Below, one piece after another: positions 9,005 to 23,888 of a stretch of 24,942 nucleotides of DNA. Numbering within the stretch: the first letter of the stretch is position 1; the number at the start of each line of letters is the position of its first letter. Source of the stretch: a virus. The notes beneath the pieces were generated by a model. The model was not told the DNA's origin. It searched no databases and saw only the letters and a program-made list of their open reading frames with translations. Location: positions 1 to 24,942 of IMG/VR virus record IMGVR_UViG_3300046450_001536; one strand, given 5' to 3'. A program made the position numbers and the translations under genes.

Positions 9005-10638
9005 TTTACGTATTCTTTTCTCTTTTTTTCCCAAAAATTCTTTAATTCGCAAAGCTCGGCTATCATATCATACGCTTTTTCTCTATCGAACGGCTCGTAT
9101 AAAGGCTTAAGAAATTTGAACGAATCTTCATTAAGATAAGCATCGCCCATTCCATTAATAAACATTTGATAGTTTAAATCTCTTATTAATCTAGACTCGA
9201 AATAAGTGTTAAGCTTTTCTGGCTCTCCTAGAACTTCTGCTATAAGCCATCTAGCATATTCTGAGTTTGTCATATTGTCAGTATTTACTTTTTTAGGATT
9301 GTGTATCCTAGAGGGCGACATCCATGTTTCCTCCATGGATTTAACTTCTACTGAATCAAAATAGTTTTCCCACTTTTTAGCTGTTTTGTCCCATTGGTAA
9401 TACTTCTCAAAATTTAACCTTGTGTTCTTTGAGAGTGTATCTCTTTCGCTTTTTTGCATTTTAAAAAACTTTTGAATTTGTTTTGCTGTGTCTTCATTGT
9501 CTGGAACTGCTCTATTACACCCTGTCTCTAATTCGTTATAGAGAGCCTTTGGCTTTAGAGGTGTTCCTCCCAGCTTTCTAATTACACTACTCATTGCAGA
9601 GTAATCAACACTCATTACCGGAATTCCACAAGCCGCAGCTTCTACTTGAGGAAGACCAAATCCTTCACTGTTAGAATACTGTATGTACAAGTCAAAAACA
9701 TTCATGACCTTAGAAAGGTATTCATATGAAACACCTCTTTGGACATTTGAGAACGACGCGGAAAATCTTCCACAGTTTGAACATTTTGCTCTTGCGTCAG
9801 AAAAGAAGGTGGGAAAACTATGTCCACATTCACCACAAGAGTATGTAAACAATACCTTGTTGGCTATTTTGTATTGATTTAATAGCTTTGGTATATCCCA
9901 TCCCAAATCTGGATAACTAGTATGACAATACAGATAGGCATTTTTTTCACCGCTAGATTGAAGGAACTTGCTAAAGGACTCAAACAGGTCGGGAAATAGT
10001 TTACGCCTTTGGTTCCTCATTACGGTTCCAACAATTTTTGAATCTGGGTCAATCCCCATAGACTCTTTATGCGCTCTCTTGTCTTCAACAGGCGCATAAA
10101 CTTCATTGGCAGAAGGTGGCGCTGAGCCTAAACAGTTTATACTACCGTTTGATTCTTTTCTTAATACCTCTGCTCCCCAGTCTGAATACGCAAATGCAGC
10201 ATCGGCGCTAGAAAAGGTTGATAACCATTGTTCATTTTGAGGGTTTGCATCTACTGTTGGCATGATTACCCAATTAAAGAAAGGTCTAAATGGAGACCTT
10301 TCTTGGTATTCAAACATCCAAAAATCTCTGATGTCGCAGACTATGTCTGGCAAAAAGCTTAACAGTACTGATTCAAATTTCCACGCTCCAAACTGATTAC
10401 TTGGACTTGAATCATATTTTTCTTGATCTCTTTCGTTGTCTTTAGCTGGTAAATTGCCAAAGAAATGCCAAGGTATATCAGCCCTTTTTGGGTCTACATC
10501 AGATCCGTAACTAGCAAATTCTGCTAATTCGTATTTTCCTGTAGAATGCAGTCTCTTCATTACTTCTCTGAGGTATGTTGCATAACCAGTATGTAAATAC
10601 GTAGCCTCTCCGCAAAATAGTATTCTTTTTTTTCTCAT
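9001..10638 (-). CDS. GT4-like glycosyltransferase with internal zinc ribbon
   Basis: At 545 residues this is longer than a usual GT4 enzyme (about 350-420). The N-terminal half begins with KKRILFCGEATYLHTGYA, an acceptor-side Rossmann with a glycine loop. The donor half has GTVMRNQRRKLF (204-215) with basic phosphate-binding residues and SEGFGLPQVEAAACGIPV (324-341), with a complete EX7E (Glu325, Glu333). Between them is C268-x2-C271-x14-C286-x2-C289, a zinc ribbon inserted between the Rossmann strands before VSYEYLSKVMNVFDL. A helical, charged tail of about 120 residues follows the GT domain. The ATG overlaps the sigma stop as ATGA. The ribbon may bind a protein or nucleic acid acceptor; that is speculation. 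Confidence 0.86.
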   Translation of the reverse strand: MRKKRILFCGEATYLHTGYATYLREVMKRLHSTGKYELAEFASYGSDVDPKRADIPWHFFGNLPAKDNERDQEKYDSSPSNQFGAWKFESVLLSFLPDIVCDIRDFWMFEYQERSPFRPFFNWVIMPTVDANPQNEQWLSTFSSADAAFAYSDWGAEVLRKESNGSINCLGSAPPSANEVYAPVEDKRAHKESMGIDPDSKIVGTVMRNQRRKLFPDLFESFSKFLQSSGEKNAYLYCHTSYPDLGWDIPKLLNQYKIANKVLFTYSCGECGHSFPTFFSDARAKCSNCGRFSASFSNVQRGVSYEYLSKVMNVFDLYIQYSNSEGFGLPQVEAAACGIPVMSVDYSAMSSVIRKLGGTPLKPKALYNELETGCNRAVPDNEDTAKQIQKFFKMQKSERDTLSKNTRLNFEKYYQWDKTAKKWENYFDSVEVKSMEETWMSPSRIHNPKKVNTDNMTNSEYARWLIAEVLGEPEKLNTYFESRLIRDLNYQMFINGMGDAYLNEDSFKFLKPLYEPFDREKAYDMIAELCELKNFWEKKRKEYVK

Positions 10639-11237
10639 GAATTTACATCTCTCAACATTTGTATTATGAGACTTATTTTGTCAGACACTTCATTTTTTGT
10701 ATTTAAGGTATACTCAGAAATTTCTTTATTAGTATATCCTTGAAGTCTTAGCTTAATTATGAACTTATACTCTTCAGGAAAAGATTCTGGAAGATAGTCA
10801 AGTATAGATTCTTTTGTATTATATCGGAATTGTATTTCAAATTCCTCAATTTTATTTGTTGCGCTTAGCCTGTTTAGTTTCTTCTTAAGTTTATGTATTT
10901 CGTTTTTTATGCATATAGACGCATAAGTGCTAAACTTAGATTTTTCTTCTACATAAGTCCTTATAGACTTTAGCAATCCAATGAGACCAGCCTGTATGTA
11001 GTCTTCAAAGTTAGAATCATCTAAAAAATAAAGAGCTTGAGAAACAACCAGTCCGTAATGTTTACGGATTAGCGCATCTTCGGTAAGCTCTTTTTGTTTA
11101 GACGTGTCTTGACTAGTCTTTAACTGTTTGCTGTTCTTTTGTTGCGTTAAAGAATTTGAATTCTGTGACTCTGAATTTTGTTGAATATCTTTTTTGACCA
11201 CTTTTATCAACCCAAGAGTTGTTTCTAGCAGAGGCAA
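10635..11237 (-). CDS. Sigma-70-family RNA polymerase sigma factor, start uncertain
   Basis: The recognisable protein has sigma region 2 at about residues 55-120: LIRKHYGLVVSQA, then DDSNFEDYIQAGLIGLLKSI (core-binding) and KFSTYASICIKNEIHKL (-10 recognition helix). Region 4 at about 150-198 includes EEYKFIIKLRLQGYTNKEISEY and a degenerate helix-turn-helix. Phage sigmas of this kind redirect host RNA polymerase to phage promoters. No in-frame ATG precedes region 2. The only usual starts are TTG at 11237 or 11210 and GTG at 11201, all inside ssb and without a clear ribosome site; the coordinates give the longest option. The Q/N/S/K-rich first 50 residues overlap ssb in another frame and may not all be translated. 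Confidence 0.75.
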   Translation of the reverse strand: MPLLETTLGLIKVVKKDIQQNSESQNSNSLTQQKNSKQLKTSQDTSKQKELTEDALIRKHYGLVVSQALYFLDDSNFEDYIQAGLIGLLKSIRTYVEEKSKFSTYASICIKNEIHKLKKKLNRLSATNKIEEFEIQFRYNTKESILDYLPESFPEEYKFIIKLRLQGYTNKEISEYTLNTKNEVSDKISLIIQMLRDVNS

Positions 11238-11469
11238 CTAAATCAATTACGCTTCCTTTGGAGCAGTGACGGCTAATAGTTTCTCCGCCAGAGTCCCAAG
11301 CCTCAAAATCGAAGAAGTTTACGGTCTTCTTCTTTTCTCCATTTTTTTCTTTTCTATATTCGGTAATAGCCAAGGTAAAAGTGCAGAGGTTTGTGTGTTC
11401 AAATTCTACAATTTTTGGATTGTCTACTAGTTTCCCAATAAATCTACAATAGTTTGAAATCGTATTCAT
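11113..11469 (-). CDS. ssb: Single-stranded DNA-binding protein
   Basis: A 118-residue OB-fold SSB. Strand patterns fit bacterial SSB: NYCRFIGKLVDNPKI at 6-20, CTFTLAITEYRK at 29-40, VNFFDFEAWDSGGETISRH at 50-68 (the W-x--E strand and helix), KGSVIDLVASARNNSWVD at 71-88 and the last strand KFRVTEFKFFN at 98-108. It coats single-stranded DNA at the fork and during recombination. The end KEQQTVKD lacks the long linker and acidic DDDIPF-like tip through which bacterial SSBs recruit partners. It is the first gene after the promoter at 11505-11533, with GAGG nine bases before its ATG. Its last part overlaps the possible sigma start region. Confidence 0.88.
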   Translation of the reverse strand: MNTISNYCRFIGKLVDNPKIVEFEHTNLCTFTLAITEYRKEKNGEKKKTVNFFDFEAWDSGGETISRHCSKGSVIDLVASARNNSWVDKSGQKRYSTKFRVTEFKFFNATKEQQTVKD

Positions 11470-11487
11470 TCAATAGTGCCTCATGTT

Positions 11488-11500
11488 TAATACTGTATTA
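11488..11500. promoter_or_regulatory. 13-base palindrome, operator candidate at ssb promoter
   Basis: TAATAC and GTATTA face each other around one central base. The element starts four bases after the -10 box (11505-11510) and covers the expected transcription start near 11498. A dimeric regulator bound here would block initiation. Arms of only six AT-rich bases mean chance cannot be ruled out, but it sits in the only sizeable non-coding gap of the window. Confidence 0.42.
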
Positions 11501-11504
11501 GTAA

Positions 11505-11533
11505 GTTATAGTCTCGGTTTAAAAAAATGTCAA
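11505..11533 (-). promoter_or_regulatory. Sigma-70 type promoter for ssb, sigma and sugar genes
   Basis: On the minus strand an exact -35 box TTGACA (11533-11528) is followed by a 17-base spacer, beginning with seven T, and a -10 box TATAAC (11510-11505), five of six consensus bases. The stop codon of the polymerase C-half gene (TGA, 11532-11530) lies inside the -35 box. Transcription should begin near 11498, giving a leader of about 30 bases before the ssb ATG at 11469. It is in the only intergenic space above 25 bases and should be read by the host housekeeping polymerase, suggesting early or constitutive expression of the left half of the window. Confidence 0.75.
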
Positions 11534-13122
11534 CTTAACTCGATCACTTCATTTAGTATGAAGCCATCATCTAGTTGATATCGCTTCTTTTTTGAATCTT
11601 GGCCAATCATAATAATGTTGTTTCCTTCGTATAAGATATTTTTATAAGACAACCACTGATCATTAAAAACCGTAACGGTATCCATAGTGCCTGTAGTGTC
11701 TTCTACACATAAGAAAGCCATCTCTAATCCTATAGACTTACCCTTTTTAACGACGTATTTTTTTACTTCGCTTACGGTGACAGCCATCTTAATGTTCCCT
11801 CTTTTACCATCAATAAATTCTTTAATGGTCGTGTTTGCTAAACTTATGTCATGTGCTTCGATTCTTGAATACGTGAGTGCTATTCCTAGATAATTTTCCT
11901 CTGTTCTGATTACCCATTCTGAATCATCCTTGAGTGAATAAGACGGCTTTTCACACTGTTTCACTAAGTCAGCCATTATCTGAGATCTCTTAGAGTTAAA
12001 AGCTGCTCCTCCATCCTTTTTAACGGGAATCATAACTTTAAGAAGGCTTGTTAAATTGTCATGGTCTTCAAAGTTCTCTTCTGCCCATTCGGCTTCTTTA
12101 ATGGTGATGTTTGACCAAGTATCAAATTCGTCTAACATCTGCTGTCTAGTTTCCGGAAGACCTGAAAAGAAACCTATTGATATAAGAGCAGTCAGCATTC
12201 TTGAGTTGATTTTTTGAGACGCAATAATCAGAAATTCATACCAACTGGTTTCGCAAAGGCTCTTTCCTAAAGTTTGTTCAAGAAACATTACAGCATCCCT
12301 AAACTTATCAACTTGCCTCATTCCAACAGATTTTATATCAATTAAACCGAAGTGTATTTGGTTATCAATTATGTCGGTCTTAGTGTTTAACGACTTTATT
12401 GATGGTGGACTAATATGTATATCTAAATTTTTTGCATCATTTACCAGTTCTCTTACCTCTCGTTGAGGATCTGGTTTCCCAGACGAGTGTATTAAGTAGT
12501 TGCAATAGAACTCAAGAGGAAAATGGAATTTAGCGTAAGCACTCCAGTATGCACATATTGCGTAAGACACAGCATGTGATTTATTAAAAGCGTAACGACT
12601 AGATTTTTCAATCCAGCTAAAGATTTCTTCAGCTTCTTCTGTAGTGATAATACCTTTTTCAGAAGATCCTTTTAAGAAGTCTTGTTTTACTTTGGCCATA
12701 AGGTCTGCCTTTTTCTTACCAATGGCTTTACGTAAGTTGTCGGCTTCTTGAAGATTAAAACCAGCTAACTGCTGAGCAATCTGCATAGACTGCTCTTGAT
12801 AAACAAGAACTCCTTGAGTCCCTTTTAGAATTGGCTCAAGAGAGGGGTGAAGATAAGTTATTTCTTCTACCCCATTCTTTCTATCAACATAATGCTGAGT
12901 CATTGATTTGCCATCTACGATAGCTTTCAATGTTCCCGGCCTAATAATAGATATTAGAGCAGACAACTCTTCAATGTTTCTTGGTTGAACTCTCTTGGCC
13001 CAAGACTTTCCTAGATTACTTTCTAGTTGAAAAACACCTTTAGTTTTTCCAGAACATATAAGTTCCCAAGCATCTTCATTATCAAATTTAAGTTCAAGTG
13101 GTTCAAATGTGTAAGTTTCCAT
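11530..13122 (-). CDS. dnaE: DNA polymerase III alpha, C-terminal half (fingers, HhH, OB)
   Basis: A 530-residue second half of a family C (DnaE type) replicative polymerase. ATG at 13122 is preferred (AAAAGG nine bases upstream) over a TTG at 13158. It opens METYTFEPLELKF, matching the linker after the palm, then has VFQLES at 30-35, RPG at 61-63, VYQEQSMQIAQ at 107-117, RKAIGKKK at 131-138 and AFNKSHAVSYA at 178-188, all fingers-domain signatures. A helix-hairpin-helix (FGLIDIKSVGMRQ, about 258-270) and an OB fold (about 438-529) follow. The protein ends right after the OB fold: the tau-binding domain of E. coli DnaE is absent and no QxxLF-like clamp motif is obvious. It has no catalytic Asp and must pair with the 13994-15907 product. 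Confidence 0.92.
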   Translation of the reverse strand: METYTFEPLELKFDNEDAWELICSGKTKGVFQLESNLGKSWAKRVQPRNIEELSALISIIRPGTLKAIVDGKSMTQHYVDRKNGVEEITYLHPSLEPILKGTQGVLVYQEQSMQIAQQLAGFNLQEADNLRKAIGKKKADLMAKVKQDFLKGSSEKGIITTEEAEEIFSWIEKSSRYAFNKSHAVSYAICAYWSAYAKFHFPLEFYCNYLIHSSGKPDPQREVRELVNDAKNLDIHISPPSIKSLNTKTDIIDNQIHFGLIDIKSVGMRQVDKFRDAVMFLEQTLGKSLCETSWYEFLIIASQKINSRMLTALISIGFFSGLPETRQQMLDEFDTWSNITIKEAEWAEENFEDHDNLTSLLKVMIPVKKDGGAAFNSKRSQIMADLVKQCEKPSYSLKDDSEWVIRTEENYLGIALTYSRIEAHDISLANTTIKEFIDGKRGNIKMAVTVSEVKKYVVKKGKSIGLEMAFLCVEDTTGTMDTVTVFNDQWLSYKNILYEGNNIIMIGQDSKKKRYQLDDGFILNEVIELS

Positions 13123-13783
13123 CAGCAAAAGCCTTTTCAAATTTAATCTTAGGCGCAATTCTTCTATGCAGTTTCATAAAGCCAATCATTAAATTAGCTG
13201 TATCTTTAACGTCTTGTAATGCATCGTGAGCATTTTCTTTACTTATTCCAAATAAATCTCTCATTGAGTCCATACTTAGAGATTTTACGTCTGCGTTATT
13301 TTCCATCCACATCCATACGTTATCCATCACATCAATTCTATGGATTTTATTAAAGAGAGCCTGCTTGCCTGTTTTTTTATCAACAGGTCCATACAGTTCA
13401 CACATTCGCTGCACGATGGGCATGTCAAACCCAACAATGTTATAACCGGCGGCCATAGGTGCAAAATAAGGAGTGCCTTTCCAGTTGTATTTATTTACGT
13501 AGTTCGTAAACTTTTTCCAAACGGTTCTTTCAGATGGAGCCTTTGCAATTTCTTCTCTGGTTTTACCATTAACCGCCAGAGCTTCGTCTTCAATAGGATC
13601 TAAACCCATTTTGATAGCTTCCTCGTCATCTAATGGACGAATCAAACTTTCAAAGTAACCGTCCGGCTGAACAGTTAATTTTCTCCCATGTATTGCCACT
13701 GCCGCAATTTGTATGGGTTGAGTTTTCTCAGGGTTTCTAGAGCCAGTTTCAAAGTCGAAGACGATAATGTCTTTATAGTTCAT
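13103..13783 (-). CDS. DEDDh 3'-5' exonuclease (DnaQ/epsilon-like)
   Basis: A 226-residue exonuclease. The four motifs are present: VFDFETGS with Asp10 and Glu12, IVGFD with Asp120, and HDALQDVKDT with His186 and Asp191, giving the DEDDh class. HDALQDV is the ExoIII motif of DnaQ and the proofreading epsilon subunit. A long insert (about residues 35-100) carries ETG-like and EEIAKAPSE segments seen in DnaQ relatives. It removes nucleotides from 3' ends. Because it lies between the two halves of the replicative polymerase and overlaps both neighbours (4 bases with the 73-residue gene, 20 with the C-half), a proofreading role in a three-part polymerase is the natural inference. The C-terminal tail AFADGNLHI is not obviously a clamp motif. 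Confidence 0.9.
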   Translation of the reverse strand: MNYKDIIVFDFETGSRNPEKTQPIQIAAVAIHGRKLTVQPDGYFESLIRPLDDEEAIKMGLDPIEDEALAVNGKTREEIAKAPSERTVWKKFTNYVNKYNWKGTPYFAPMAAGYNIVGFDMPIVQRMCELYGPVDKKTGKQALFNKIHRIDVMDNVWMWMENNADVKSLSMDSMRDLFGISKENAHDALQDVKDTANLMIGFMKLHRRIAPKIKFEKAFADGNLHI

Positions 13784-14001
13784 CTTATTTTCCTTTTAAT
13801 ATCAAAAAATTTGTTTAATGCTTCATCAATATTCTCATACAGTTTACTGAAAAAATGTGAGTGAACTTGATATCTAATCTTTTTATGCATTAAGGGGTAA
13901 AAGTCATTGATTCTGCAAATTGTTAAACCTTTGTAGTCAACTGACCTGCCAGACAATATTTTATCCTTTACGTTTTGCGTGTAGCTAGTCTTACTATTCA
14001 T
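13780..14001 (-). CDS. 73-residue unknown protein between polymerase halves
   Basis: A small basic protein. Residues 22-36 (DYKGLTICRINDFYP) look like a beta hairpin; residues 44-70 contain a helix rich in Lys and aromatic residues (FFSKLYENIDEALNKF, then DIKRKI). There is no homing-endonuclease or intein motif. The ATG has a strong AAAGGAG four bases upstream and overlaps the stop of the polymerase N-half by 8 bases; its own stop overlaps the exonuclease as ATGA. The position suggests a role with the split polymerase, such as bridging its parts, or it may simply be a passenger. I do not recognise a family. Confidence 0.72.
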   Translation of the reverse strand: MNSKTSYTQNVKDKILSGRSVDYKGLTICRINDFYPLMHKKIRYQVHSHFFSKLYENIDEALNKFFDIKRKIR

Positions 14002-15907
14002 GTCGCTCCTTTAGTTGGTCTCTAATGCCCATCATTTTATCCATTAAAGAAATACCTAATATATCAAACTTAACATGACCCATTGCTTCTAGGTCGTTCA
14101 TTTCCATTCCGGCTATCTTTTCGGAGCCTCTTTTGTCTCGCACCATGGGGCAAACTTCATTTAAATCGTGAGACGATATAACGACACCTGCCGCATGCTT
14201 TCCTTGAGATTTAAAAGTCCCTTCAATTCTCATAGCCTGATTGAAAAGATTAGCGTAGTCACCTTCAAGAGTGCCTTCATCATTTAATCTACAATAACCT
14301 CTAAGAGTTTCTGGCTGATTCATTAGAGTCCATTTAATCACAGATGGATTATCCATTTCTGCTAACTGATCTGAAACCTCATGCTCATGAGGAAGACTCT
14401 TTGTTATGGCATTCATTTCATCAAAACCACAAGCTTCGTTCATTCTCAGAACTTCTTTGATAGCTCCTCTACCTTGCAACCTTCCAAACGTTACCATTTG
14501 GCCTACCTTTTCAGTTCCGTATTTGTCACGTATATAATCTATTGTTTCATCTCTTTTATTGGCTGGAACATCTATATCGACATCTGGTAAGGAAGCATAA
14601 CCTTCAGTATTTCTACCGGCGTTATAAAATCTTTCAAACAGTAATCCATATTCAATGGGATCAACTTGAGTTACACCTATTAAGTATGATACTAAACATC
14701 CAGCAGCAGAGCCTCTTCCCGGTCCGGGAATATGATTGCGTTTAATTACACTATTAACTATATCTCTGACTATTAGGAAGTATCCTGCTAGGTTAGCACC
14801 ACTTATTACATCTAGCTCTTTTTTGATCCGGTCTGTGTAAATTTGTTTTGCTTGTTCGGTATTAACTTTTCCTGTTGGAGCAAGTCTATTCTTCCATCCT
14901 TCTCTACACAGCTGTCTTAAATATTGATCTTCAGAATGTTCTTTTGGGCATTTAAATTTTGGAAGCATTGGCTTGCCAAGTATGTCGTAGTCTTCACACA
15001 TGCTGGCTATAAGCATTGCGTTTTCTATTTCTTCCGGCGTGTTGACGTTTTGTATTTCTTCTAAGGATGGTATGTGAAAGTTGTTAGACTTAAAAAATCC
15101 AGAGAATGGTGAATCTCCCGTTTCTCTAAGTTTCTTCTTTATTTTAGGAAGGGTTGTTTTAAGAGCAGAGCATAGCAGTAACAGTTGGTCGTCTGCATCC
15201 TTCTTTTCTGGATAGTGAGAATCTGCCGTAGCTACAGTCCGGAAGTTGTATTTTTTTGCTATATATCTTAAACCTTGAACTACCAGCTTGGCCGCTGGAG
15301 AATTTTCTTGATCAATAGCCTGTATTTCAATGAAGAAGTTCTCCCTTCCAAATATAGCCCTGTATTCGTTGGCCACTTTTAATGCTTCGTTTACCCAGTC
15401 TGGATGTATATACCTTTTCGCTTCTTCTTCTGTTTTAGCGTTGTATCCTGATTTTGGATCTGCAAATATTGCATCAGCCAAGTCGCTTCCAAGATGCCCG
15501 CTAAAAGATATTAAATTACCATCAGCAAACGGGTTTAATGTTGCAAGATCAAGTCTTGGTTTGTAATAATAGTTTTCTTCGTTGTTGCTCTTGGAAACAG
15601 CTTGGATTAGATTATCCCAACCTTTTCTATTTTTGGCAAGTACGCATAGATGACTAAGGCTTCTATTTTCGTCAGATTTTATTTCACAATCTTGCTGGCT
15701 TAGGTAAAACTCGCACCCCAAAATAGGCTTGATATTTTTTTCTTTCATTGCCTGCGTAAAGGCCACGGCTCCTGATATAGTCCCGTGGTCTGTCAGGGCG
15801 CAAGAAGTGTAACCCAAGTTAGAACATCGCTCAGCGACCTGTGAGGGCTTACTGAGGCCGTCTAGGAGACTGTAATGGGTGTGCAGGTGTAAAGGTGTCC
15901 AATTCAT
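13994..15907 (-). CDS. dnaE: DNA polymerase III alpha, N-terminal half (PHP and palm)
   Basis: A 637-residue first half of a DnaE-type polymerase. The PHP domain opens with HLHTHYSLLDG (His7, His9), then LTDHG at 39-43, GCEFYL at 64-69 with Glu66, SGHLGS at 136-141 and TADSHY at 227-232. These metal ligands look intact, unlike the degenerate PHP of E. coli. The palm carries GPGRGSAAG at 395-403, PDVDID at 441-446 (Asp442 and Asp444, matching E. coli Asp401 and Asp403) and HVKFDILG at 611-618 with the third Asp, Asp615. The protein stops about 20 residues later, at the palm-fingers linker. The ATG joins the FkbM stop as TAATG. It needs the 11530-13122 product to form a working polymerase. Confidence 0.94.
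   Translation of the reverse strand: MNWTPLHLHTHYSLLDGLSKPSQVAERCSNLGYTSCALTDHGTISGAVAFTQAMKEKNIKPILGCEFYLSQQDCEIKSDENRSLSHLCVLAKNRKGWDNLIQAVSKSNNEENYYYKPRLDLATLNPFADGNLISFSGHLGSDLADAIFADPKSGYNAKTEEEAKRYIHPDWVNEALKVANEYRAIFGRENFFIEIQAIDQENSPAAKLVVQGLRYIAKKYNFRTVATADSHYPEKKDADDQLLLLCSALKTTLPKIKKKLRETGDSPFSGFFKSNNFHIPSLEEIQNVNTPEEIENAMLIASMCEDYDILGKPMLPKFKCPKEHSEDQYLRQLCREGWKNRLAPTGKVNTEQAKQIYTDRIKKELDVISGANLAGYFLIVRDIVNSVIKRNHIPGPGRGSAAGCLVSYLIGVTQVDPIEYGLLFERFYNAGRNTEGYASLPDVDIDVPANKRDETIDYIRDKYGTEKVGQMVTFGRLQGRGAIKEVLRMNEACGFDEMNAITKSLPHEHEVSDQLAEMDNPSVIKWTLMNQPETLRGYCRLNDEGTLEGDYANLFNQAMRIEGTFKSQGKHAAGVVISSHDLNEVCPMVRDKRGSEKIAGMEMNDLEAMGHVKFDILGISLMDKMMGIRDQLKERHE
14006..14012 (-). promoter_or_regulatory. 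Strong ribosome binding site of the 73-residue gene
   Basis: AAAGGAG ends four bases before the ATG at 14001 and lies inside the last codons of the polymerase N-half. This well-placed site, with stop TAG at 13996-13994, shows that the polymerase reading frame ends on purpose here and that a separate gene begins, rather than a frameshift breaking one polymerase gene. Confidence 0.7.
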
Positions 15908-16605
15908 TATATTTTCCGAAAAATTGCGTCTTGACCAATATCTTGAGCGTATCTATAACCATTTGCAATCAAATGTTCTGTTATAGGATCTCTAGTATGC
16001 GGCCTTACTTCAATACAGATTATTTTAAATTCATATTTGTCAAAAGGGAAGTTTTTGATTACTTCATATTCAGCTCCTTCAATATCAATATCTAAAAATT
16101 CTATTAGCTTTGGCGCATCATGCCTTTCTAATATATCTAAAAGGGTTGTAGTTTCTAGTTCTACATATTCCCCCTCAAGTTTTTCTTCGTAGCCTTCGTC
16201 AAGATGTTCAACAATTCCGCCTCCTCCCAAGTGAGCATGCCAGTTTATTACCTTTTTGCCTTGGGCTTCCTCGCGTTCTTTACCTCGTTTGAATTCCTCA
16301 TATCTTTCAGCGTAGTTATGTATGAAATATTTCTTTTTTGTTTTTTCTCCATACACCAAAGAGTTGTCGATAATACAACTTCTGTGTTCTAAAAGAGCCT
16401 CTTGGTGAACGGGGCTAGGCTCAACACACAAACCTTTCCATCCAGCTTTTTCTAATGCGTAGGTATTGCTTCCGTCTTTTCCATCATGAGCGCCAATATC
16501 TACAAAATAACCACTGTCGCCAAGAATATAATAAACGTATAAGTCTTGACCATTAGAAGATCTTTTAGGGTGACCTTTGATATTTCCCTTTATTTCTTGA
16601 TTCAT
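15907..16605 (-). CDS. FkbM-family SAM-dependent methyltransferase
   Basis: A 232-residue protein with the FkbM pattern. The SAM-binding loop FVDIGAHDGKDG is at 34-45, the acidic end of beta-2 is Glu62-Pro63 in GLCVEPSP, and the second signature FLDIDIEGAEYEVI spans 170-183, followed by CIEVRPHT. The family mostly O-methylates sugars, lipids or polyketides. Here it is set among replication genes, overlapping the RecB-like nuclease by 4 bases (ATGA) and the polymerase N-half by 1 (TAATG). A role with the distant sugar block is possible, or methylation of a nucleic acid or nucleotide; the sequence does not decide. An insert at 88-146, rich in Lys and Glu, enlarges the lid region. Confidence 0.83.
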   Translation of the reverse strand: MNQEIKGNIKGHPKRSSNGQDLYVYYILGDSGYFVDIGAHDGKDGSNTYALEKAGWKGLCVEPSPVHQEALLEHRSCIIDNSLVYGEKTKKKYFIHNYAERYEEFKRGKEREEAQGKKVINWHAHLGGGGIVEHLDEGYEEKLEGEYVELETTTLLDILERHDAPKLIEFLDIDIEGAEYEVIKNFPFDKYEFKIICIEVRPHTRDPITEHLIANGYRYAQDIGQDAIFRKI

Positions 16606-21953: not shown

Positions 21954-22433
21954 TTATCCTCTGTTATATTTTCTTCTGCTTAATTCTATTAGGGTGTCGG
22001 CTTGCTTTCTAATGTCCCTAATTGTTTCTGAGCAAGAGGTGACTATACCGTCTACAACTCTCTTGACTCTCCAGACTTTTTGAATAAAGTCATCTTCTCT
22101 AATGACTAAATTAACTTTAACTTCCCATTTTGTATACTTATCGAAGTTATGAGACTTTGAAGACACTGCATGGTTTATGCATTCTTCACACCATTTAGAT
22201 TTAGCAGACTGTCTGTTATATTCTTTTTGTAGATAGTTGCAATATCCATATAAGACATATGCTTTCTCGCAGCATTCTTCTGAGGTAAAGGACTTCAATT
22301 CAAAACTAGACAGGTTGATAAGTTTTTCAACCTCTGGGTTTGGCTCTACAGAAGAAATGTTGGATGTGTAACTGTCCAAAATATCTATAAACTCGTCTAG
22401 TTTATCTATTGATAATAGATTGTCTCCAGTCAT
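21954..22433 (-). CDS. Candidate UvsY-like recombination mediator
   Basis: A 159-residue, mostly helical protein with no catalytic motif. The second half runs CCEKAYVLYGYCNYLQKEYNRQ (a long helix), then KVNLVIREDDFIQKVWRVKRVV and IVTSCSETIRDIRKQADTLIEL. From memory this resembles the end of T4 UvsY: a K-x-L strand, an acidic DxD-like turn, then a helix with a Cys-Ser pair followed by an I-D/R-I repeat. UvsY helps the recombinase displace SSB. The gene lies two genes after the RecA-like recombinase, as a mediator might. The similarity is by eye and weak. AGGA is seven bases before the ATG; overlap with the nuclease is 32 bases. Otherwise unknown. Confidence 0.45.
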   Translation of the reverse strand: MTGDNLLSIDKLDEFIDILDSYTSNISSVEPNPEVEKLINLSSFELKSFTSEECCEKAYVLYGYCNYLQKEYNRQSAKSKWCEECINHAVSSKSHNFDKYTKWEVKVNLVIREDDFIQKVWRVKRVVDGIVTSCSETIRDIRKQADTLIELSRRKYNRG

Positions 22434-22824
22434 CTTCTTTTCCTAAATAACTTAATGCAATAAGTTGTATATCGTTTTTTTTAAACCAATTAGCTTTATC
22501 TCGATCTCTAGCTTTTGATTTTCGAAAGCCCTGCCTGTCTCCATGAAAATGAGCAACAAATTCAAAATGTTGCCGCCCTTGAACTTCTATTGCTAACGAA
22601 TGAGATGGTATAAAAAAATCAACATATAAAGTAGACTTTCTTGACGGCTTATGAGATCCCGGCAGTGGAACTTCTTCAAGGATTGTATCATAAGTAAACT
22701 GCTCACGGAGTAACTTTCTTGCTAAAATATGCAAATTACTTCGAGGTCTTTTTTGATCTCCGGAAACTATACATTTTGAGAGCTTCCACGGACGTTCTCG
22801 GCCATCAAAACCAATGGCCTTCAA
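22402..22824 (-). CDS. Vsr-like / DUF559-like endonuclease-fold protein
   Basis: A small nuclease-fold protein of 140 residues from TTG 22824; the frame is open to another TTG at 22863 (153 residues) without a ribosome site. The core reads YVDFFIPSHSLAIEVQGRQHFEF: Asp and Glu-x-Gln form the D-ExQ version of the PD-(D/E)XK centre found in Vsr and DUF559 proteins. Then FRKSKARDRDKANWFKKNDIQLIALSY gives the conserved DR-K--W---N-I-LI helix and strand. It likely nicks DNA at mismatches or branches, or is a resolvase-like partner of the recombinase. The TTG overlaps the RecA stop as TTGA with AAAGGA nine bases before. Confidence 0.72.
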   Translation of the reverse strand: MKAIGFDGRERPWKLSKCIVSGDQKRPRSNLHILARKLLREQFTYDTILEEVPLPGSHKPSRKSTLYVDFFIPSHSLAIEVQGRQHFEFVAHFHGDRQGFRKSKARDRDKANWFKKNDIQLIALSYLGKEDDWRQSIINR

Positions 22825-23888
22825 GACAACATTTCCTTTAATGAATTTTGCAAAACTGGCCAAAGTTCATTCTTATCAAGAAAATCTTTAAGTCTTTGTT
22901 GTCCTTGGAACTTAACAAACTTGATAATTTTTTCTTCGTCTTCTTGGTCGATCTCTTCAGACTCTAAAAGCTTTTTGATTGGTTTAGTATTATCAACTAA
23001 AAAATGACAAGTGTACCAAGCGCCAGCGGCTGAAATCAAATCAAAATCATTTGCCTGATCAAACAACTCTTGTTTGTAATCAATACCTATTCCATACCTA
23101 AGCCATCCAATAGCTTCAGCTCCAACAAAACCACCAAGAGCAGAAGTGACTACTTTCCAATGCATAGCTTGACCAATCTGACGGCCATCATTCTTTTCTT
23201 TCCATGCTTGAGTCCAAGAAATTTCTAATATTGTATCTGCTTGATAACGAACCTTTACGCCTCCGTCGGCAACTTTCTTCTTGCCCATGCCTCCAGTATT
23301 TGCAATGAAGTGAGTAATCATAATAATGATAGCTCTTTGTTTAGGAACTACACTACTCATTTTCTTGCAGAAGTTAGATAGAATCCTTGGAACTCCGGGC
23401 CTATAATCCCCACGCACTTCTTCGTCTAAGTCTCGCTGTGCTATTAAACTAGATATTGAGTCAATAATAACTACACAATTAGGATGTGCTTTTACTAACT
23501 TTTCCACAGCCCCAAGATATTGTTCGGCGCTTAGTGTCTCATTGTCAGCTTGAACAACAGTTATTTTGTCTGCTTTTAAACCTTCAACACCTTCAAAGTT
23601 TTTGACACTTAGTCTACCTTCTACATTAATATAAAATATAGGTCTTTCGCCGTATTCTTTTTTTTGACAGTTTGCTGCGAATTGTAAAGCTGTGGTTGTT
23701 TTCCCAGACTTTGGGTCTCCGATCATCTGAACCCAAGTACCTTCTCGAAATCCTCCACCAAGAGCATAGTCAAGGGATGGACTCACAGGTATAACCTTCA
23801 TGTTTTGTAATTCTTCAAATACTTCAGCTCCATTAACTAGTATATTTCCATATTTTTTAGTAATGGTTTTTAGTGTTGCATCACTCAT
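22821..23888 (-). CDS. recA: RecA-like recombinase
   Basis: A 355-residue strand-exchange ATPase. GDPKSGKTT at 57-65 is Walker A, Glu90 in NVEG is the probable catalytic glutamate, VVIIDS at 139-144 is Walker B, and MITHFI at 190-195 matches the Gln/His-sensing strand. The L1 and L2 DNA-binding loops follow (about 157-167 and 197-208, with GGMGKKK). The C-terminal part, including GAEAIGWLRYGIGID and AGAWYT, follows the bacterial RecA layout more than T4 UvsX. It forms filaments on single-stranded DNA for recombination and repair. AAGGA is eight bases upstream of the ATG, which overlaps the previous stop by 8 bases. Confidence 0.92.
   Translation of the reverse strand: MSDATLKTITKKYGNILVNGAEVFEELQNMKVIPVSPSLDYALGGGFREGTWVQMIGDPKSGKTTTALQFAANCQKKEYGERPIFYINVEGRLSVKNFEGVEGLKADKITVVQADNETLSAEQYLGAVEKLVKAHPNCVVIIDSISSLIAQRDLDEEVRGDYRPGVPRILSNFCKKMSSVVPKQRAIIIMITHFIANTGGMGKKKVADGGVKVRYQADTILEISWTQAWKEKNDGRQIGQAMHWKVVTSALGGFVGAEAIGWLRYGIGIDYKQELFDQANDFDLISAAGAWYTCHFLVDNTKPIKKLLESEEIDQEDEEKIIKFVKFQGQQRLKDFLDKNELWPVLQNSLKEMLS
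22834..22839 (-). promoter_or_regulatory. Ribosome binding site deciding the nuclease TTG start
   Basis: AAAGGA lies inside the last codons of the recombinase gene, nine bases before a TTG at 22824-22822 that overlaps the recombinase TGA. The longer TTG at 22863 has no such element, so the shorter product is more likely. Confidence 0.6.

Follow-up and report, generated by a model that had tools for sequence, protein, structure and literature searches.

We analysed a 24,942-nt virus record (IMG/VR IMGVR_UViG_3300046450_001536, positions 1 to 24,942; hereafter the window), in which a replicative DNA polymerase of the DnaE type (bacterial Pol III alpha) is divided over two genes. The main genes of the window all lie on the minus strand. 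Read in this direction, a gene for the N-terminal part of DnaE (N half) is followed by a gene for a 73-residue protein (p73), a DEDDh exonuclease gene (exo) and a gene for the remaining part of the polymerase (C half) (Table 1).

Table 1. Genes of the split polymerase locus in the window and split inteins in related loci (L-numbers)
Feature	Coordinates	Strand	Basis
N half of DnaE: PHP, thumb, palm; D442, D444, D615	13994..15907	-	Pfam PF02811, PF07733; Thermus DnaE alignment
p73, 73-aa protein, function unassigned	13780..14001	-	Open reading frame (ORF) list; recognisable in 117 of ~170 split loci
DEDDh (DnaQ-like) exonuclease (exo)	13103..13783	-	PF00929, PHROG 192; motif residues invariant
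C half of DnaE: fingers, HhH, OB fold; starts at palm/fingers linker	11530..13122	-	PF17657, PF14579; AlphaFold model
Single-stranded DNA-binding protein (SSB), next gene, syntenic in relatives	11113..11469	-	PF00436
Sigma-70-like factor, syntenic in most relatives	10635..11237	-	PF04542
Split intein, L193	10300-11700		Motifs by eye
Split intein, L249	12030-13320		Motifs by eye
Split intein, L262	4110-5400		Motifs by eye
Split intein, L287	11220-12510		Motifs by eye
Split intein, L232	11790-13060		Motifs by eye

The N half is 637 aa long, with a PHP domain at residues 6-196 (PF02811, E 3e-38) and a DNA_pol3_alpha domain at residues 328-618 that covers the whole profile (PF07733, 1-260/260). 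It aligned to residues 7-627 of Thermus DnaE, and its three Asp residues fell on the PDIDTD and KMDFLG motifs, whose Asp residues are the established catalytic positions of that structure. Only 22 residues separate D615 from the stop codon. The C half (530 aa, from an ATG at 13122) matched DNA_pol3_finger (20-166/166) and HHH_6. Modelled as a single chain with AlphaFold (pLDDT 88.8, pTM 0.81), it mapped to E. coli DnaE 579-1074 and M. tuberculosis DnaE1 608-1099, with structural matches to 4jom (Z 21.2; 4.0 A over 325 residues) and 7pu7 (Z 20.8; 4.5 A over 457 residues). By their domains, the PHP, the palm with three Asp residues and the fingers, HhH and OB fold, the two halves together are a DnaE1-type family C polymerase, which would be expected to polymerise.

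The two products are nearly contiguous. Against PHROG family 405 (phage DNA polymerase), the N half matched profile positions 42-618 and the C half positions 623-1075, so that the break lies between nearly adjacent positions. Counted from KxDxLG to FQLES, the linker comprises 19 residues in the N tail plus 28 in the C head, compared with 43-57 in intact outgroup enzymes; tail and head thus add up to the length of an intact linker, which indicates that no residues are missing at the break. The coding sequences overlap by 8 nt (N stop/p73 start), 4 nt (p73/exo) and 20 nt (exo/C), and sequences resembling ribosome-binding sites precede p73 (AAAGGAGCGACATG) and exo (AAAAGGAAAATAAGATG). The exonuclease carries the DxE, NxxxFD and HxxxxD motifs, with D10, E12, D120, H186 and D191 invariant among 11 aligned members. 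For p73, searches returned no convincing family (best Pfam E 0.0022, in 3 of 13 members; PHROG E 0.03).

An earlier sequence-only reading of this DNA had anticipated much of this anatomy: a polymerase split around an exonuclease, with PHP, palm and Asp 442, 444 and 615 in the upstream product, a stop about 20 residues after Asp615, a second product that begins at the linker with almost nothing missing, a 73-residue gene and a DEDDh exonuclease in between, and a separate stop and start for each half with a ribosome site at the inserted gene. The ORFs, the Pfam and PHROG matches, the junction overlaps and the linker counts agree with it throughout, and the alignment to full-length DnaE that it had proposed as a check gave the Thermus and E. 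coli ranges quoted above.

To place the locus among its relatives, we collected IMG/VR loci by searches with the N half, the C half, exo and alignments, which favour close relatives, and aligned the products. About 170 non-redundant loci encode the two halves in different frames with exo between them, 117 of them with a recognisable p73, which answers the proposed search for the same gene order. Independent contigs match the arrangement of the window at ~100% identity, completely in L024 and up to the contig end inside exo in L001. Across 148 complete sets, mean identity was 58% for the N half (minimum 40%) and 51% for the C half (minimum 33%). The palm motif PDxDxD was kept in 148 of 148 and the third Asp in all, seven sequences off the strict motif being conservative variants around this residue; the fingers motifs stay conserved alongside the palm. 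As judged from dN/dS values relative to L004 of 0.037 (N half), 0.051 (p73) and 0.048 (C half), both halves are under purifying selection. Pairwise distances of the two halves were correlated (r=0.90), although co-inheritance alone would also yield a high value. Each of 14 large contigs (100-163 kb) has exactly one palm gene and one fingers gene. The split thus marks a large clade of uncultured phages, and the sequence-only reading, which pictured a single unusual locus, was too narrow in this respect.

The spaces between N half and exo and between exo and C half vary across loci from overlap to >6 kb. Their cargo, named by eye, includes methyltransferases, PD-(D/E)XK-like, EndoVII/HNH-like and uracil-DNA-glycosylase-like genes, and sugar-metabolism genes. 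Small EndoVII/HNH-like genes recur at the exo-C junction in 14 loci (L107:7590-7997 and 13 more) and also occur at L213:10275-10658. In L078 and L085, ~6 kb with aldehyde dehydrogenase-like, aminotransferase-like and nucleotide-sugar dehydrogenase-like genes lie between p73 and exo. In a large part of the clade (L055, L089-L135 and most of L219-L291), the N half itself lacks, in frame, the equivalent of residues ~113-229, the C-terminal part of PHP. Two contigs from metagenome-assembled genomes (MAGs; SAR202 and Flavobacteriales) carry clade members and may be mis-binned phage; the SAR202 contig (L213, VFHP01000007.1, 152 kb) could be a host hint or a product of such mis-binning. A search for the T4-type capsid family Gp23 gave no match, but its control likewise matched nowhere, hence the result is uninformative.

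One lineage in this set is continuous at the palm/fingers junction. In L193 (158.5 kb), a single frame that follows p73 and exo covers both palm and fingers, and L218, from another sample, is 100% identical at the junction and also continuous. The sequence-only reading had named a continuous DnaE frame in related genomes as a finding that would speak against the split. Such a relative indeed exists, but a tree of the concatenated N and C halves places L193 among the split lineages, on branches that are starred. Forcing the split sequences together without L193 was 52 log-likelihood units worse (AU p=0.003; LG+G4), the phylogenetic models used being simple. Furthermore, the fused linker of L193 measures 36 residues, close to the 38-40 of tail plus head in its split neighbours and below every intact outgroup measured. 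We first considered L193 as the ancestral intact form and dropped this idea since it is nested inside the split clade. Because of this position and the matching linker length, L193 is best read as a natural re-fusion, and the continuous relative strengthens the case for the split. Across the junction, its predicted model keeps the normal architecture of DnaE (match to 2hpi with Z 39.1; 3.7 A over 724 residues). Fusion in one relative of proteins that other relatives make separately is a classic sign of a shared complex, and the re-fusion in L193 is the best evidence that both halves form one enzyme.

Could the halves instead have separate roles, with the N half serving as a nuclease (PHP) or nucleotidyltransferase module while the C half binds DNA, perhaps on the host replicase? 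In favour of this alternative, both halves consist of complete domains, and the C half folds alone in its model. We nevertheless consider it improbable: polymerisation by a catalytic Asp triad that lacks fingers is not known, the fingers motifs are conserved together with the palm, L193 has re-fused both in normal geometry in its model, and no other phage DNA polymerase was found on the 14 large contigs, where neither PolA nor PolB (PF00136) was detected.

A second alternative, that an intron, a split intein or a frameshift rejoins the halves into one continuous DnaE, draws on the split inteins and introns that interrupt other phage DnaE genes, for example in phage KKP_3916 and, at a different position of DnaE, in the window's own relatives. 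At the break itself, the candidates failed one by one. An Rfam search of window positions 11400-16000 returned no family at E<=1, and thus no group I/II intron core, and since all four genes overlap there is no space for an intron; an intron at the break was rejected on both grounds. Intein blocks were found neither in the N tail (DKMMGIRDQLKERHE) nor in the C head (METYTFEPLELKFDNED), and an intein there was rejected; likewise, no homing endonuclease was found in the break of the window. A programmed frameshift from exo into the C half was rejected because of the exo/C spacing, which runs from overlap to >2 kb across relatives, and varying spacing and cargo throughout the break likewise exclude a conserved frameshift. 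Moreover, the FNKSH motif, the break site of cyanobacterial DnaE, is uninterrupted in the C half (residues 179-183), and no Int-N or Int-C is present. Rejoining is accordingly a very improbable explanation; the earlier statements that the break ends lack an intein and that the arrangement differs from the cyanobacterial one held up.

Least probable of all is that the halves are decaying remnants of a phage DnaE while the host polymerase replicates the phage: many phages do use host replicases and the window is a fragment, but dN/dS is ~0.04-0.05 in both halves, the catalytic residues are kept in 148 of 148 sets, and ~170 loci have both halves, with one of each per large contig.

The split polymerase is thus real rather than an artefact, widespread, and very probably functional. 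We regard it as very likely that the two halves are non-covalently assembled subunits of one family C polymerase, made from a coupled operon and proofread by exo. The N and C halves would be translated separately as subunits of one DnaE1-type enzyme, the overlapping starts and stops implying translational coupling that would deliver N half, p73, exo and C half in one place. The halves would then dock via the palm/fingers surface, which is intramolecular in ordinary DnaE, and so rebuild the active site, while the DEDDh exonuclease made between them would proofread. Binding of the N half to the C half, polymerisation by the complex and proofreading by exo are steps that we infer, whereas the data show the anatomy, the lack of splicing elements, conservation and purifying selection across the clade, the lack of another phage polymerase among the genes of the large contigs, and one re-fusion. 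The earlier proposal of assembly without splicing is supported by the gene boundaries, domain matches, linker counts, selection, conservation and the lack of introns, inteins or another polymerase. Several points weigh against this model. The completeness of the large contigs is unstated, which leaves some room for a second polymerase elsewhere. A search of 16 records for a beta clamp (PF00712) came back empty and leaves processivity unexplained, and confidence in the palm/fingers region of the L193 model is modest (about 50-80).

As for its origin, a single old fission in the clade ancestor is the simplest reading. Since p73-exo precedes DnaE in L193 but is enclosed by the two halves in the other loci, the fission may equally well have arisen by a tandem duplication followed by reciprocal loss, or by the move of one half, as by an insertion. 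Afterwards, other genes may have settled in the break, among them the HNH/EndoVII-like endonucleases. A more far-reaching version is possible, which we put forward tentatively: an obligate multi-subunit replicase of palm, fingers and DEDDh exonuclease (and p73) that assembles co-translationally, its fission old, stable and reversible, with some fingers subunits trans-spliced from two genes. If true, one polymerase would overcome gene fragmentation by both non-covalent assembly and protein splicing.

Trans-splicing enters at another site. Several relatives have a split intein in the C half at SFNK/C...N/SH, its Int-N and Int-C flanking a free-standing gene for a Vsr-like endonuclease (named by eye; Table 1), and it is readily recognised there, in contrast to the palm/fingers break. 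The intein is of the fractured-gene type, and its site is ~4 residues away from that of the cyanobacterial DnaE intein; in L249, L262, L287 and L232 the split intein puts the polymerase in three genes. Apparent cis inteins with an HNH-like motif occur at the fingers motif RPG/C of the C half in L232:10660-11420 and L236:10490-11280. DnaE is also interrupted in named phages, in ways that look different from the window. In Alicyclobacillus phage KKP_3916 (L199, OQ846916), four ORFs, each carrying a hypothetical annotation, share DnaE and are separated by LAGLIDADG-like and Vsr-like ORFs, and one of the breaks is close to the palm/fingers linker that is cut in the window (E. coli 558/584); these breaks are probably unannotated introns. 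In Staphylococcus phage RQ1 (L203, PV344601), DnaE is broken at the catalytic DxD (between E. coli 401 and 403) around a LAGLIDADG-like endonuclease gene, and the endonuclease genes in the KKP_3916 and RQ1 breaks suggest introns. The actinophages Leopard (L200, 82/84), NarutoRun (L201, 56/57) and MontyDev (L204, 74/76) have DnaE split between PHP and palm (E. coli ~270/317); MontyDev gp74 is annotated as a sliding clamp, yet matches the DnaE N terminus. Within the window, an FkbM-type methyltransferase gene (15907-16605) directly upstream of the N half was matched only in the closest relatives L001, L006 and L024, and a small protein at 22402-22863, similar to the nuclease portion of PHROG families for HNH/homing endonucleases, overlaps the end of a RecA-like gene.

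Nearly all bacterial chromosomes are copied by C-family polymerases, whose palm and fingers are known as parts of one continuous chain. A phage clade with an unspliced cut between the two offers interacting fragments in natural pairs, suggests that palm and fingers can do without a covalent link, and supplies a split replicase ready for use in reconstitution and engineering, with the single re-fused lineage as a natural before/after comparison.

Split phage replication enzymes are already known for PolB, PolA and NrdA. Our literature search for split DnaE in phages, with thin coverage of subscription journals, returned only a minimal form from jumbo phages; a full-length DnaE that is cut at the palm/fingers junction and is the sole detectable polymerase of a phage clade was described nowhere in the literature searched, subscription journals being mostly outside the search. 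In that minimal form, group 2.2 jumbo phages encode a reduced Pol III alpha as two proteins that are thought to reconstitute the enzyme (PMC7824862). As here, the phage homologue is in two pieces, but it consists of the catalytic core only, is encoded by distant genes and occurs together with PolB, whereas the present enzyme is full length with PHP, and lies in one operon, and neither PolB nor PolA was found in its relatives. Cyanobacterial DnaE is also in two genes; there the break comes ~180 residues further along the chain and protein trans-splicing closes it, in contrast to the intein-free break described here. The marine OM43 phages MEP401 and MEP402 likewise carry a small ORF of unassigned function between the two ORFs that encode their polymerase, but this polymerase is PolA, of family A, and the authors suggest an intron (PMC10580990). 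The same linker is broken in the cultured Rossellomorea phage phiT1 (gp20/gp19/gp18, PV767480; between E. coli 574 and 576), which is about 31% identical and has a 49-aa gene and no exonuclease in the break. Its tree position (support 51/90) shows neither a second nor a shared origin, and phiT1 as an independent fission was therefore not retained; as a cultured phage with this break, it makes the question testable at the bench. By analogy, the closest proven precedents for non-covalent assembly are the split PolB (gp43A/gp43B) of phages 25 and 44RR, T4-like phages of Aeromonas, and the split NrdA of phage Aeh1, in which an essential enzyme is made unspliced from two adjacent, separately translated genes. 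The gp43A and gp43B proteins of phage 25 co-purify and polymerise, and split NrdA is functional (PMC2988022). Those cases concern other enzyme families in few phages, with a homing endonuclease or an untranslated insert in the break (PMC2988022), whereas the DnaE split affects a C-family enzyme, holds a proofreading exonuclease and extends over a whole deep clade. Reassembly of the halves, shown for gp43A/B and Aeh1 NrdA, would be expected for this polymerase as well.

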